Shown here piece after piece: positions 1,829-20,565 of a stretch of DNA of 64,000 nt. Under the pieces are notes generated by a model. The model worked only from the letters and a program-made list of their open reading frames with translations. It had not been told where the DNA came from and searched no databases. The position numbers and the translations under genes were made by a program. Source of the stretch: Azovibrio sp. (lineage in GTDB: Bacteria > Pseudomonadota > Gammaproteobacteria > Burkholderiales > Rhodocyclaceae); NCBI GenBank assembly GCA_026414665.1, contig JAOAIO010000001.1, positions 13,309 through 77,308 of the forward strand. The letters are read 5' to 3'. Within the stretch, counting starts at the first letter, position 1. Each line of letters begins with the position of its first letter.

Positions 1829-2440
1829 TTAGACGGCTGCGGGCGTGCCGTTGGCGCGGCCGAGGCGGTATAGGGCGACTTCGGCGTTCAAATTCGGATC
1901 GGTTTCGACGCGCTCGCCGTCGGCAAAGGCCAGCCGTTCGCGTATTTCGATGTCCTGTTCGTGGCACAGCGCATCGAAATCGGCGATGGTGAAAAAGCGC
2001 ACGTTGGGGGAGTCGTACCATTGGTACGGCAAGTGCCGGGAGACCGGCATCCGGCCGGCGGCAATGGCTTCCCGATGCGGCCGATAGCCGAAATTGGGGA
2101 AGGACACCACGGCCTCATGACCGACCCGCAGCATCTCCTTAAGTAGTGGCACGGTGTGGCGCACGGTTTGCAGTGAGAGCGACATGATGACATGGTCGAA
2201 GGAATCATCCTCGAAGCCTTGTAGTCCGCGCTCTAGGTCGAACTGCAACACATTGACGCCATTGCGGATGCAGGTCGTGACCTTGTCCGGATCGAGTTCC
2301 ACGCCGTAGCCCAGGATGCCTTTCTCGCGTTGCAGGAAGTCGAGCAAGGCGCCGTCACCGCAGCCAAGGTCGAGCACCCGCTCGCCGGGTCGGATCCAGC
2401 GCGCGATGTAGTCGAAGTCGAAGCGTCCGTACAAGGTCAT
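1829..2440 (-). CDS. metW: Methionine biosynthesis protein MetW
   Basis: 203 aa, [36 protein letters not shown] methyltransferase-like start; 4-nt overlap with metX. Confidence 0.95.
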
Positions 2441-3570
2441 GTGGCAATACCCCCGAGATAGGCGCCCAGCGCGGCGTGATAATGGGGCGCATCGAGCAGG
2501 AAGGAATCATGTCCGGCATCGCAGTCGATCTCGGCGTAGCTCACCTTGCGGCCGTTGTGCAGCAAGGCGTACACGATCTCGCGGCTGCGCGCCGGAGAAA
2601 AGCGCCAGTCGGTGGTGAAGGAGGCGACGAAGAAATCGGCCCGGGCTCGGGCCAGGGCGGCGCACAGGTCGCCCCCGTAGTCGAATGCCGGATCGAAATA
2701 ATCAAGCGCCTTGGTGGTGAGCAGATAGGTATTGGCATCGAAGAACTCGGCGAACTTGTTGCCCTGGTAGCGCAGGTAGGACTCGATCTCGAATTCCACG
2801 TCGTAGTGGAAGCGGTGCTTGCCGTGCCGGAGCTGGCGGCCGAATTTCTCCGCCATTTGGTCGTCCGAGAGATAGGTGATGTGACCTACCATGCGCGCCA
2901 GGCGCAGCCCGTTTTTGGGCACGACGCCGTGTTCGTAGTAGTGGCCGCCGTGAAAATCGGGGTCGGAGAGAATGGCTTGGCGCGCCACCTCGTTAAAGGC
3001 GATGTTCTGCGCCGAGAGCCGGGGGGCCGAGGCGATGACGATGCCGTGCCGTACCCGCTCGGGATAAGCGAGGGTCCACTGCAGGGCCTGCATTCCGCCC
3101 AGGGAGCCGCCGATGACCGCCGCCCAGGTCTCAATGCCGAGCCGGTCCGCCAGGCGAGCCTGGGCCTCGACCCAGTCCTCTACCGTGACCAGAGGAAAGT
3201 CAGCGCCGTAGGGCTTGCCGGTTTGCGGGTTGATGGAGCGGGGCCCGGTGGAGCCGTAGCAGCCGCCTAGGTTGTTGACCCCCACCACGAAGAACTTGCG
3301 GGTATCGAGGGGCTTGCCCGGGCCTACCAGATTGTCCCACCAGCCAAGCGTCTGCTTTTTCTGACGGGCATCGTAATAGCCGGCCACATGATGGCTGCCG
3401 GACAAGGCGTGACAGACCAGCACCGCGTTGCTGCGGGCAGCGTTGAGCTCGCCATAGGTCTCGTAGATGAGCTCGAAGCCGGGCAGGCGGGCGCCGCTCT
3501 TTAAGCGGATTTCCTGGTCGAAACGGGCCGTTTGGGGGACGACGAGGCCCACGGAATTGGGGTCGGTCAT
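2437..3570 (-). CDS. metX: Homoserine O-acyltransferase MetX
   Basis: [37 protein letters not shown]-terminal [12 protein letters not shown]. Start taken at [14 protein letters not shown] (3570); the ORF track's upstream extension runs through the leader RNA. Confidence 0.95.
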
Positions 3571-3584
3571 GGTGCTCCGAATGT

Positions 3585-3618
3585 AAAAAACCCAGCCGGC
3601 CAAAACGGGGACTGGGTT
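3585..3618 (-). terminator. Intrinsic terminator/attenuator in the metX leader
   Basis: On the minus strand: AACCCAG-(TCCCCGTTTTGGCCGG)-CTGGGTTTTTT, about 15 nt upstream of the metX ATG. Confidence 0.65.
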
Positions 3619-3632
3619 CGGGGTGCGCACAT

Positions 3633-3684
3633 GTCCTCGCTTTAGCTGTTTTTCACGCCCGCAAGCTGAGTTCAAAAAGGCGTT
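3633..3684 (-). ncRNA. SAM-II (SAM-alpha)-like riboswitch aptamer upstream of metX
   Basis: Minus strand AACGCCTTTTTGAACTCAGCTTGCGGGCGTGAAAAACAGCTAAAGCGAGGAC: P1 ACGCC/GGCGT, loop UUUUUGAAC..GCUUGC, conserved-looking GCUAAAGCG, pseudoknot CUC(a)GCUU with AAGCGAG. Confidence 0.75.
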
Positions 3685-3707
3685 CCCGACCAGCGTCGGA
3701 GTAGGCA

Positions 3708-3736
3708 ACAGTACCGGCGGCGCCGGCAAAAGTCAA
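3708..3736 (-). promoter_or_regulatory. Candidate sigma-70 promoter of metX leader
   Basis: Minus strand TTGACT-N17-TACTGT placed just upstream of the aptamer, with a small CCGAC-GCTG-GTCGG hairpin between. Confidence 0.55.
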
Positions 3737-3752
3737 TCGAGCCCAATCGGAT

Positions 3753-5501
3753 TCAGCTGGCTGCCACGGGCACGGGATTGTTGAGCTTTTCCACCGCTTC
3801 GCGGATCTTGCTCGTTTCTTCGAGCCGCAGGATGCGCCGCACTTGCGGCGCCAGCTCGCTCACATCGGCCTTCAGCACCCGGCTCTTGACCTCGAGAATC
3901 TGGGAGGGATGCATGGAGAAGGTACGTAGCCCCATGCCGAGCAAAAGGCGGGTGAACTTGGGCGCGCCCGCCATCTCGCCGCAGACCGAGACGGGAACGC
4001 CGGCTTTCTCGGCGCTGGCGATGGTGTGCGCCACGAGCATCAGCACTGCCGGGTGGAGCGGATCGTAGAGGCTGGCGACTTGTTCGTCGGTGCGGTCGAT
4101 GGCGAGGGTGTATTGGATCAGGTCGTTGGTGCCGATGGAAAGAAAGTCGAGGCGGCGCAGGAACATGCTCACGGCCAGGGCCGCGCCGGGAATTTCGATC
4201 ATGCCGCCCACCTCGATGTTCTCGTCGAACAGGATCTTCTCGCCGCGGAGACTGGACTTGGCCTGCTCCACCGCCGCTAGGGTGGCGTCGATCTGGTGGG
4301 CGTGCGAGAGCATGGGAATCAGCAGCTTCACCTTGCCGTAGCGGGAAGCGCGCAGGATGGCCCGGAGTTGCAGGTGGAACATCTTCGGCTCGGCGAGCGA
4401 CAGGCGGATGGCGCGCCGGCCTAGGGCCGGATTGGTTTGGGTGCGCTGCTGGTCGATGGCTTTGTCGGCGCCCAAATCGAAAGTGCGGATGGTCACGGGC
4501 CGGCCTTCCATGGCTTTGACCACCTTGCGATAGGCTTCGAATTGCTCGTCCTCCGAGGGCATGTCGCCGCGACCGAGGAACAGGAACTCGGTACGGAACA
4601 GGCCGATGCCGTCGGCGCCGGCTTCGAGGGCGTCCTTGGCGTCGGCCGGCAGCTCGATATTGGCTTGCAGGCTCACCGAGACCCCGTCCAGGGTTTCCGA
4701 GGGGGCCGACTTGAGGCGCTTGAGTTTGTTGCGTTCGAGCTCGATTTGCTCCTTACGGATCTGATATTCCTCGAGCACGCGCTCATCGGGATTGACGATC
4801 AGCACCCCCCGGGTGCCATCGACGATCAAAAGCTCCTCGTCGCGGATCATGGCGCGCGCATCGCCGAGACCGACGATGGCGGGAATCGCCATGCTGCGTG
4901 CCAGAATCGCGGTGTGCGAAGTAGCGCCGCCAACATCGGTGACGAAGGCGGCGAAGCGGTGTTCCTTGAAAGCGATGACATCGGCCGGCGACAGGTCGTG
5001 CGCGACGATGATCAGGTTTTCCTCAGTCACGCCCTTGCGCCGCTTTAATACCGGCCGGGCCGGATGGCCGAGGAGTTCCTTCACCACGCGCTCCACTACC
5101 TGCACCACATCGAAGCGGCGCTCCTTCAGGTAGGGGTCCTCGAACTGCTCGAACTGGGCGGCCAGATGCTCCATTTGCTGCACGAGGGCCCATTCTGCAT
5201 TGCAGCGCCGCTCGCGGATGATCTGCTTGGGCACTTCGACCAGCTCCGGGTCGTGCAGGAACATCACATGCAGGTCGATGAAGGCCGCCAGTTCCGCCGG
5301 CGCGTGCTCGGCGTTTTCCTTCATGGCCGCGAGTTCCTCGCGCACCGCCTGGAGCGCCTGCTCGAGCCGGCTGACTTCCTTGTCTACCAGGCGCGGGGCA
5401 ATGGTCAGGTGCGCCACCTCCAAGGTGGCGTGGGACATGAGCATGGCCCGGCCGATGGCGATGCCGCCGGATACGCCTAAGCCATGTAGGGTGAAGCTCA
5501 C
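3753..5501 (-). CDS. ptsI: PTS phosphoenolpyruvate-protein phosphotransferase (Enzyme I)
   Basis: FAAFVTDVGGATSHTAILARSMAIPAIVGLGDA (active His), GIGLFRTEFLFLGR, ..VSVCGEMAGAP. GTG start at 5501 overlaps the HPr stop. Confidence 0.95.
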   Translation of the reverse strand: MSFTLHGLGVSGGIAIGRAMLMSHATLEVAHLTIAPRLVDKEVSRLEQALQAVREELAAMKENAEHAPAELAAFIDLHVMFLHDPELVEVPKQIIRERRCNAEWALVQQMEHLAAQFEQFEDPYLKERRFDVVQVVERVVKELLGHPARPVLKRRKGVTEENLIIVAHDLSPADVIAFKEHRFAAFVTDVGGATSHTAILARSMAIPAIVGLGDARAMIRDEELLIVDGTRGVLIVNPDERVLEEYQIRKEQIELERNKLKRLKSAPSETLDGVSVSLQANIELPADAKDALEAGADGIGLFRTEFLFLGRGDMPSEDEQFEAYRKVVKAMEGRPVTIRTFDLGADKAIDQQRTQTNPALGRRAIRLSLAEPKMFHLQLRAILRASRYGKVKLLIPMLSHAHQIDATLAAVEQAKSSLRGEKILFDENIEVGGMIEIPGAALAVSMFLRRLDFLSIGTNDLIQYTLAIDRTDEQVASLYDPLHPAVLMLVAHTIASAEKAGVPVSVCGEMAGAPKFTRLLLGMGLRTFSMHPSQILEVKSRVLKADVSELAPQVRRILRLEETSKIREAVEKLNNPVPVAAS

Positions 5502-18985: not shown

Positions 18986-18995
18986 CGGCGCCTTT

Positions 18996-19085
18996 CCGAG
19001 GAGCGCTGCGAGATCAGCACGATCCCAGGCTCGGAACCCGGCGCCCAGGTCTTGGCGCCGGCCACATGTGTGAACGGCGCTCACC
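18996..19085 (+). ncRNA. SAH (S-adenosylhomocysteine) riboswitch
   Basis: CCGAGGAGCGCTGCGA..CCCAGGCTCGG..(CCGGCGCC/GGCGCCGG hairpin)..GGCGCTCACC, matching the SAH riboswitch core; directly upstream of ahcY. Confidence 0.95.
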
Positions 19086-19167
19086 TTCCCAACCCTGTCG
19101 GGCGTAGGGGTCGAGGTGAGCCGCTGGGCGCACCCGCCCCGGCCGCTTTTGCCAAAGGAGCATAGCC

Positions 19168-20565
19168 GTGGCTTTTAACGATTACGTCATCACCGACCTT
19201 GCGCTGGCCGATTGGGGCCGCAAGGAAATCAAGATCGCCGAGACCGAAATGCCGGGTCTCATGGCCATCCGCGAGGAATACGCGGCGGCGCAGCCCTTGA
19301 AGGGGGCGCGCATCAGCGGGTCCTTGCACATGACGATCCAAACCGCGGTGCTGATCGAGACGCTGGTGGCGCTCGGCGCCGAAGTGCGCTGGGCGTCTTG
19401 CAACATCTTCTCGACGCAGGATCATGCCGCCGCCGCCATCGCCGCTGCCGGCATCCCGGTGTTCGCCAAGAAGGGCGAGACCTTGCGCGAGTATTGGGAC
19501 TATACGCACCGCATCTTCGAGTGGCCCGATGGCGGCTATTCCAACATGATTCTCGACGATGGCGGCGATGCGACCTTGCTCTTGCACTTGGGCGCCCGCG
19601 CCGAGCAGGACCTGTCCGTGCTGGCCAAGCCCGGCTCCGAAGAAGAGACCGTGCTGTTTGCCGCGATCCGCGCCAAGCTCGCGCAAGATCCGCGCTGGTA
19701 TTCGACGCGGCTGGCGCAAATCAAGGGCGTGACGGAAGAGACCACCACCGGCGTGCATCGTCTCTACCAGATGCACCAGCGCGGCGAGCTGAAGTTCCCG
19801 GCCATCAACGTAAACGACTCCGTCACCAAGTCCAAATTCGACAACCTCTATGGCTGCCGCGAGTCGCTCGTCGATGGCATCAAGCGCGCCACCGATGTGA
19901 TGGTGGCCGGCAAGATCGCCGTGGTGTGCGGCTATGGCGATGTCGGCAAGGGCTCGGCCCAGGCCTTGCGGGCGCTGTCGGCCCAGGTCTGGGTCACCGA
20001 GATCGACCCGATCTGCGCCCTGCAAGCGGCGATGGAGGGCTACCGCGTCGTGACCATGGACTATGCTTGCGACAAGGCCGACATCTTCGTGACCGCCACC
20101 GGCAATTACCATGTGATCACGCATGAGCACATGGTGAAGATGAAGCACAACGCCATCGTCTGCAACATCGGCCATTTCGACAACGAGATCGATGTCGCAG
20201 CCCTCGAGCAGTACCCGTGGGAAGAGATCAAGCCCCAGGTCGACCACGTCATCTTCCCGTCGGGCCGGCGCATCATCCTGCTCGCCAAGGGGCGGCTCGT
20301 GAATTTGGGCTGCGCTACCGGGCATCCCAGCTATGTCATGTCGTCCTCGTTCGCCAACCAGGTGCTGGCGCAGATCGAGCTGTTTACCAAGACTGCGGCC
20401 TATCCGATCGGCGTTTATACCCTGCCCAAGCATTTGGATGAAAAGGTGGCGCGCTTGCAGCTCAAGACACTGGGGGCGCAGCTCACCACCCTCACGCCCG
20501 AGCAGGCGGCTTATATCGGCGTGCCGATCGAAGGTCCGTACAAGGCCGAGCACTACCGCTATTGA
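19168..20565 (+). CDS. ahcY: Adenosylhomocysteinase
   Basis: GTG start; [67 protein letters not shown]-terminal [10 protein letters not shown]. Confidence 0.98.

Follow-up and report, generated by a model that had tools for sequence, protein, structure and literature searches.

Layout of the metX leader

The window, that is, the whole 64-kb stretch of DNA analysed, carries on its minus strand a gene for homoserine O-acyltransferase, metX (2437-3570, with its ATG at 3570), which is assigned by homology and gene order and regarded here as the regulated gene; 285 relatives of MetX were found in public genomes. It overlaps a second minus-strand gene (1829-2440), which we take to be metW, again from homology and gene order. 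Upstream of metX, the minus strand from 3736 to 3585 reads as a promoter, a small hairpin, an aptamer (3683-3636) and a terminator (3618-3585), and sequence inspection found every block quoted in the preliminary description of this leader on that strand and in its proper place. The Shine-Dalgarno GGAG of metX (3575-3578) lies past the terminator.

The -35 hexamer TTGACT (3731-3736) and the -10-like hexamer TACTGT (3708-3713) are spaced by 17 nt, and transcription would start near 3701. Of 61 related metX leaders, 56 have a TTGAC[TA] box 5' of the first aptamer helix, P1, usually 29-33 nt away. A strict promoter and terminator scan of the window picked up neither the promoter nor the terminator of the leader, because TACTGT is a poor match to TATAAT and the loop limit of the scan (8) excludes the terminator hairpin. 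The small hairpin CCGAC-GCTG-GTCGG (3686-3699), located between promoter and aptamer, is not conserved in relatives and falls outside the conserved aptamer.

Within the aptamer, P1 is formed by ACGCC (3679-3683) and GGCGU (3655-3659). The loop L1 contains UUU (3674-3676), which is expected, from its conservation and its equivalence to U8-U10 of SAM-V, to be the third strand of the SAM-binding triplex (PMC6061858). The pseudoknot helix P2 pairs UUGC (3661-3664) with the GCUAA of GCUAAA (3641-3646), a motif that also supplies SAM contacts and is found in all 40 leaders aligned, and its extension P2a pairs CUC (3668-3670) with GAG (3636-3638). The block GCTAAAGCGAGG, also given as GCUAAAGCGAGG, occupies 3646-3635. 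L3, GAAAAACA (3647-3654), measures 8 nt, compared with about 12 nt in most relatives. Among 40 leaders including that of the window, the nucleotides of the SAM contacts (UUU, UUGC and GCUAAA) are invariant or nearly so, T10 and T11 of L1 being invariant and T9 nearly so. In the closely similar structures of SAM-V and SAM-II, SAM is contacted by a U strand, UUG and U-A-A-A; with U47 and A50 of SAM-V taken as equivalents, U3644 would be expected to contact the adenine of SAM and A3641 its amino-acyl end (PMC6061858). When the aptamer strand is folded alone, its minimum free energy (MFE) structure differs from P1 plus P2, a result that counts neither way because the pseudoknot is not representable in that energy folding.

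Assignment to the SAM-II class

The preliminary description had called this leader SAM-II-like and had looked to the Rfam model of SAM-II, RF00521, for confirmation. That match is absent, so that for this copy the refuting outcome named there did, read literally, occur: at the gathering threshold only one tRNA and one SAH riboswitch were matched in the 64-kb window, and permissive scans of 3400-3900 returned no match to the window copy with RF00521, even at E<=1, and none with the SAM-V model, RF01826. The short L3 and weak 3-bp P2a probably explain why RF00521 misses the window copy. Among 80 metX loci fetched from related Betaproteobacteria, the closest of which (L002, a betaproteobacterial MAG) shows 96% MetX identity, approximately 60 share a leader motif with the consensus GCGCCGAUUUGAAC..UCAGCUUGCGGGCGCUcAAUAAAUACGGCUAAAGCGaGG. 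When nine related leaders bearing this motif were scanned with Rfam, that of L018 exceeded the RF00521 cut-off (37.7 versus 36 bits), those of L050, L006, L020, L077 and L060 scored 28-31 bits at the same position and that of L041 scored 24 bits. RF00521 matches 68 of 150 Burkholderiales genomes, 26 of them over the cut-off, and none of 14 control genomes. A clade model built from the leaders (R1) matches 117 of the same 150 genomes, weak matches included; its score on the window is discounted since the window is in its training set.

A covariance model made from 81 elements of other lineages (R2), with the window and its nearest relatives left out, gives the window copy 48.4 bits, with E 9.9e-11 when 64 kb is searched; the runner-up in the window has an E value of 0.25. 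A different element of the window's own genome, the metK copy, did belong to the training set of R2. Applied to 200 genomes of the phylum, R2 finds again 36 of the 43 RF00521 loci that exceed the cut-off and lie outside the class. Because R2 and RF00521 match each other's loci, the betaproteobacterial set and canonical SAM-II can be said to recognise each other. A search of 369 genomes of the class with the rigid pattern TTGC-N-AAACAGCTAAAGCG matched nothing but the window, and the pattern was set aside as too strict.

The secondary structure is supported by the variation among 80 distinct sequences, in which 93.3% of the cells of P1, P2 and P2a taken together hold standard pairs (85.4% when shuffled) and the covariation score is 0.172, a value reached in 0 of 500 shuffles (0.057 for shuffled alignments) and approached by no slid register (<=0.055). 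P1 is paired in 94.8% of cells, with two-sided changes at three pairs and exchanges among GC, CG, AU and UA; the window and L002 themselves carry a compensatory A-U in place of G-C. In P2a, the pair adjoining the invariant C:G occurs as AU, UA, UG, GU and CG, and this same pair, the second of the helix, is found when counted in the fixed register in 79% of 85 sequences as against 50% expected (0 of 500 shuffles); a test of P2a with free register gave no signal, so that only the fixed register, which covaries over 80-85 sequences, yielded one. The UUGC:GCUAA pairing of P2 holds in 99.7% of cells and, being invariant, provides no covariation signal. Covariation, the absence of which the preliminary description had named as a refutation, is present in P1 and P2a. 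The pseudoknot drawn in that description fared differently in its two halves. Its outer part, CUC:GAG, is retained as P2a; the inner helix GCUU:AAGC proved less consistent than UUGC:GCUAA, the canonical SAM-II register, because 8 of 80 sequences lose the C23:G59 pair of the former and show no compensating change.

Set beside RF00521, the element has the same succession of parts (P1, UUU of L1, UUGC, GCUAAA and P2a) with matching spacing, P2 being separated from P2a by 3 nt : 3 nt, and a shared association with methionine genes and a downstream terminator, in addition to the reciprocal model matches. The best RF00521 copies read CGUGG-UGAUUUG-AGCCGGCC-GGC-UUGC-AGCCACG-UUAAAUAAGUC-GCUAAA-CAG-GCCGG, with the parts ordered as in the betaproteobacterial set. 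The window copy differs from them in its 8-nt L3, in a P2a of 3 bp, against a longer helix rich in C and G in the top-scoring copies of other classes, in a P1 of ACGCC/GGCGU rather than CGUGG/CCACG, and in lying under detection, although the RF00521 gathering score is the detection threshold of one model and no structural property of SAM-II. Thus, homologs, covariation, conserved contact positions and reciprocal recognition by RF00521 uphold the SAM-II identity originally suggested, and the window element is a somewhat divergent, short-loop copy that belongs to an established class of riboswitches and does not define a new one. The short L3 is unlikely to be the sign of a broken copy, since five other genomes have a comparably short L3 in the copy before metN. 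SAM-V (RF01826), which also occurs in SAM-II/SAM-V tandems, shares the binding core and pseudoknot fold (PMC6061858), but the window copy has neither the P3 hairpin in L3 nor the occlusion of the Shine-Dalgarno sequence.

The placement in the metX leader given in the preliminary description is supported. SAM-II with terminators extends beyond the alphaproteobacterial leaders from which that description called it best known: SAM-II in beta-proteobacteria, mostly with terminators, had been reported in 2007 (PMC2258182). A different classification could be drawn from Leyn et al. 2014, who confined SAM_alpha to Rhizobiales and Rhodobacterales and described in 35 beta-proteobacterial genomes a 'novel' metXZ RNA element, with a pseudoknot and a terminator in metXW and metZ leaders, for which no ligand was named (PMC4239095). 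The leader set examined here is likewise a conserved pseudoknot RNA followed by a terminator before metXW or metZ in beta-proteobacteria, and it shares with the metXZ element its genes, clade, architecture and high conservation (PMC4239095). If the latter were an RNA unrelated to SAM-II, sensing methionine, homoserine or SAH, the failure of RF00521 on the window copy would be readily accounted for. Such a reading is highly improbable, however, given that RF00521 and the betaproteobacterial model each pick out loci of the other and that a side-by-side alignment shows an identical core with the SAM contacts kept, the difference being one of label only. What Leyn et al. called metXZ is very likely the SAM-II riboswitch, even though those authors drew no link to SAM-II (PMC4239095).

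Terminator, candidate antiterminator and probable mode of control

The intrinsic terminator, AACCCAG-N16-CTGGGTTTTTT (also AACCCAG...CUGGGUUUUUU; 3585-3618, minus strand), has a folding energy of -14.1 kcal/mol (z -2.6), and under a permissive criterion a hairpin with a U-run lies downstream of the aptamer in 63 of 64 metX leaders. These conserved terminators, together with the homologs, support the earlier proposal that the metX leader acts by attenuation through an intrinsic terminator. A candidate antiterminator pairs a 5' arm, UAAAGCGaGGAC (3633-3644), which overlaps the 3' strands of P2 and P2a, with a 3' arm, GUCCcCGUUUUGG (3600-3612), which overlaps the terminator; both lie on the minus strand. 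In the window these arms form a duplex of -13.6 kcal/mol and a local hairpin of -12.0 kcal/mol (z -1.9). In transcripts folded to the terminator loop, the P2/P2a 3' strand (UAAAGCGaGG..) pairs with the 5' side of the terminator (..UCCxCGCUUU). The antiterminator and the terminator are mutually exclusive.

Across leaders, the antiterminator duplex averages -11.3 kcal/mol, versus -9.6 +/- 0.3 when the letters of the arms are shuffled. With arms swapped from one leader to another the value is -11.1 +/- 0.24, not significantly different from -11.3, and no covariation was detected in the antiterminator; as the exchange makes little difference, the relationship is one of conserved complementarity rather than covariation. 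Two other antiterminators were considered and rejected. Pairing of the P1 3' strand GCGGGC with GUCCGC of the terminator amounts to about 0.4 expected pairs on average, and the upstream CUGGUCGGG takes part in the MFE structure of the window, but relatives seldom show such upstream pairing (a mean of about 0.6 expected pairs). Leyn et al. had offered an antiterminator guess involving their regions 3 and 4, which differs from, or is not stated as, a pairing of the P2 3' strand (PMC4239095).

These features are brought together in the following proposed mechanism. With SAM scarce, the pseudoknot 3' strand UAAAGCGaGGAC would pair with GUCCcCGUUUU inside the terminator to make the antiterminator, and metX-metW would be transcribed. 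With SAM abundant, the ligand would bind the P2 triplex (UUU of L1, UUGC and GCUAAA) and lock P2/P2a, withdrawing UAAAGCGaG from the antiterminator; the AACCCAG/CUGGGUU terminator could then form and transcription would stop before metX. Since terminator and antiterminator exclude each other and SAM binding would take the strand that the antiterminator shares with the aptamer, the leader has the logic of a transcriptional OFF switch. We infer from the aptamer class and this arrangement that SAM is the ligand, that the direction is OFF and that switching takes place. A SAM-II riboswitch of a form distributed throughout the Burkholderiales most probably controls metX-metW by transcription attenuation.

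Alternatively, the same aptamer might act on translation by occluding the Shine-Dalgarno sequence instead of on termination. Some SAM-II copies are known to be translational (PMC6061858), and in the second, metK-linked copy of this genome GCUCC lies opposite GGAGC of its own Shine-Dalgarno sequence, a complementarity that suggests translational control of that gene. For metX there is only a slight chance of such an output: no aptamer pairing with the Shine-Dalgarno sequence was seen, the latter (3575-3578) stands past a strong terminator some 55 nt 3' of the aptamer, and terminators are kept in nearly all metX leaders. It is scarcely credible that the leader instead encodes on its plus strand an antisense sRNA belonging to the Bp2_287 family (RF02424), which has been recorded among the expressed sRNAs of Burkholderia (PMC10987360), because the plus-strand match is weak (20.2 bits versus a cut-off of 70), the U-run of the terminator would become a 5' A-run, and conserved core, promoter and terminator are all oriented toward metX.

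Elsewhere too, RF02424 matches fall on the strand opposite SAM-II-type elements, and the sole match over the cut-off (L195:1531-1608) lies opposite a metZ leader behind purF, the gene names being taken from translated sequence. The reverse complement of Bp2_287 holds the same aptamer core and terminator, whereas the family is defined on the other strand and labelled an sRNA whose function is unknown. In all probability, RF02424 is a betaproteobacterial SAM-II riboswitch with its terminator, in the purF-metZ gap, taken in reverse orientation.

Distribution and significance in the Burkholderiales

Of the 84 loci that were assigned, 27 have metX as the closest gene on the 3' side, 26 metZ, 10 the gene of an orphan MYDC protein, 8 metH, 8 metK and 5 metN; most loci thus stand before a methionine or SAM gene. 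The functions concerned are homoserine acylation (metX), sulfhydrylation (metZ), methylation (metH), SAM synthesis (metK) and methionine uptake (metN). The second SAM-II-type copy in the window's genome (G000:C88:11027-11083; L133:2528-2584, minus) precedes metK. Copies linked to metK form a subtype with mostly AGUU for AUUU and CAACUUGC for CAGCUUGC; the metK copy of the window's genome has this AGUU and CAACUUGC combination, and the same subtype stands before metK in several other families.

Tandem SAM-II-type elements were observed in L102, L103, L115, L116, L130, L137, L138, L156 and L170, with one tandem element seen by pattern in L174; the first element has a terminator in the case read (L134), and the second is of the CAACUUGC subtype. 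The tandems precede the orphan protein, which is approximately 99-111 residues long, starts with M(Y/F)DC and has no Pfam or NCBIfam match. For its core (residues 38-101) AlphaFold predicts, at high pLDDT, a beta-alpha-beta-beta-alpha-beta fold, for which a search of the PDB gave no match better than E 0.027. Tandem SAM-II pairs are known from 44 examples, some with mixed outputs (PMC9481103).

Several variants of the element were also noted. Aptamers with a very short L3 (GGGCGU-AAAACA-GCUAAA and similar) occur before metN in L173, L175, L181, L191 and L192, and an extra L3 insert, in several cases hairpin-like and reminiscent of SAM-V P3, is present in L152, L165, L179, L184, L185 and L186. 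In Candidatus Accumulibacter meliphilus (L027), an aptamer at most about 230 nt 5' of metX is interrupted by extra sequence inserted within GCTAAA (GGCTAA...AAAGCGCGG). The metX leaders of some relatives, for example L033, L037 and L051, are missing a SAM-II-type element. The SAH riboswitch of the window (18992-19089, plus strand; RF01057, 52.7 bits against a cut-off of 37) lies upstream of ahcY (19168-20565), so that the window holds both a SAM switch and a SAH switch.

The chances are roughly even that these loci constitute a Burkholderiales-wide SAM-II regulon comprising metX, metZ, metH, metK, metN and the tandem-linked M(Y/F)DC protein of about 105 residues, with a distinct metK subtype possibly differing in affinity, ligand preference or output (translation).

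Many copies of the element are missed by RF00521, as the counts of 68 and 117 genomes, weak matches included, among the same 150 indicate, and the strand assigned to RF02424 is probably the wrong one. A specific candidate antiterminator is now defined and open to mutation. With the assignment to SAM-II, SAM becomes the very likely ligand of the metXZ element, which had been left unassigned in beta-proteobacteria. Leyn et al. listed metK and metNIQ without known regulators in beta-proteobacteria (PMC4239095), and for metK and metN the elements described here likely supply one. For this clade, the switch in the metX leader is an ordinary regulator.
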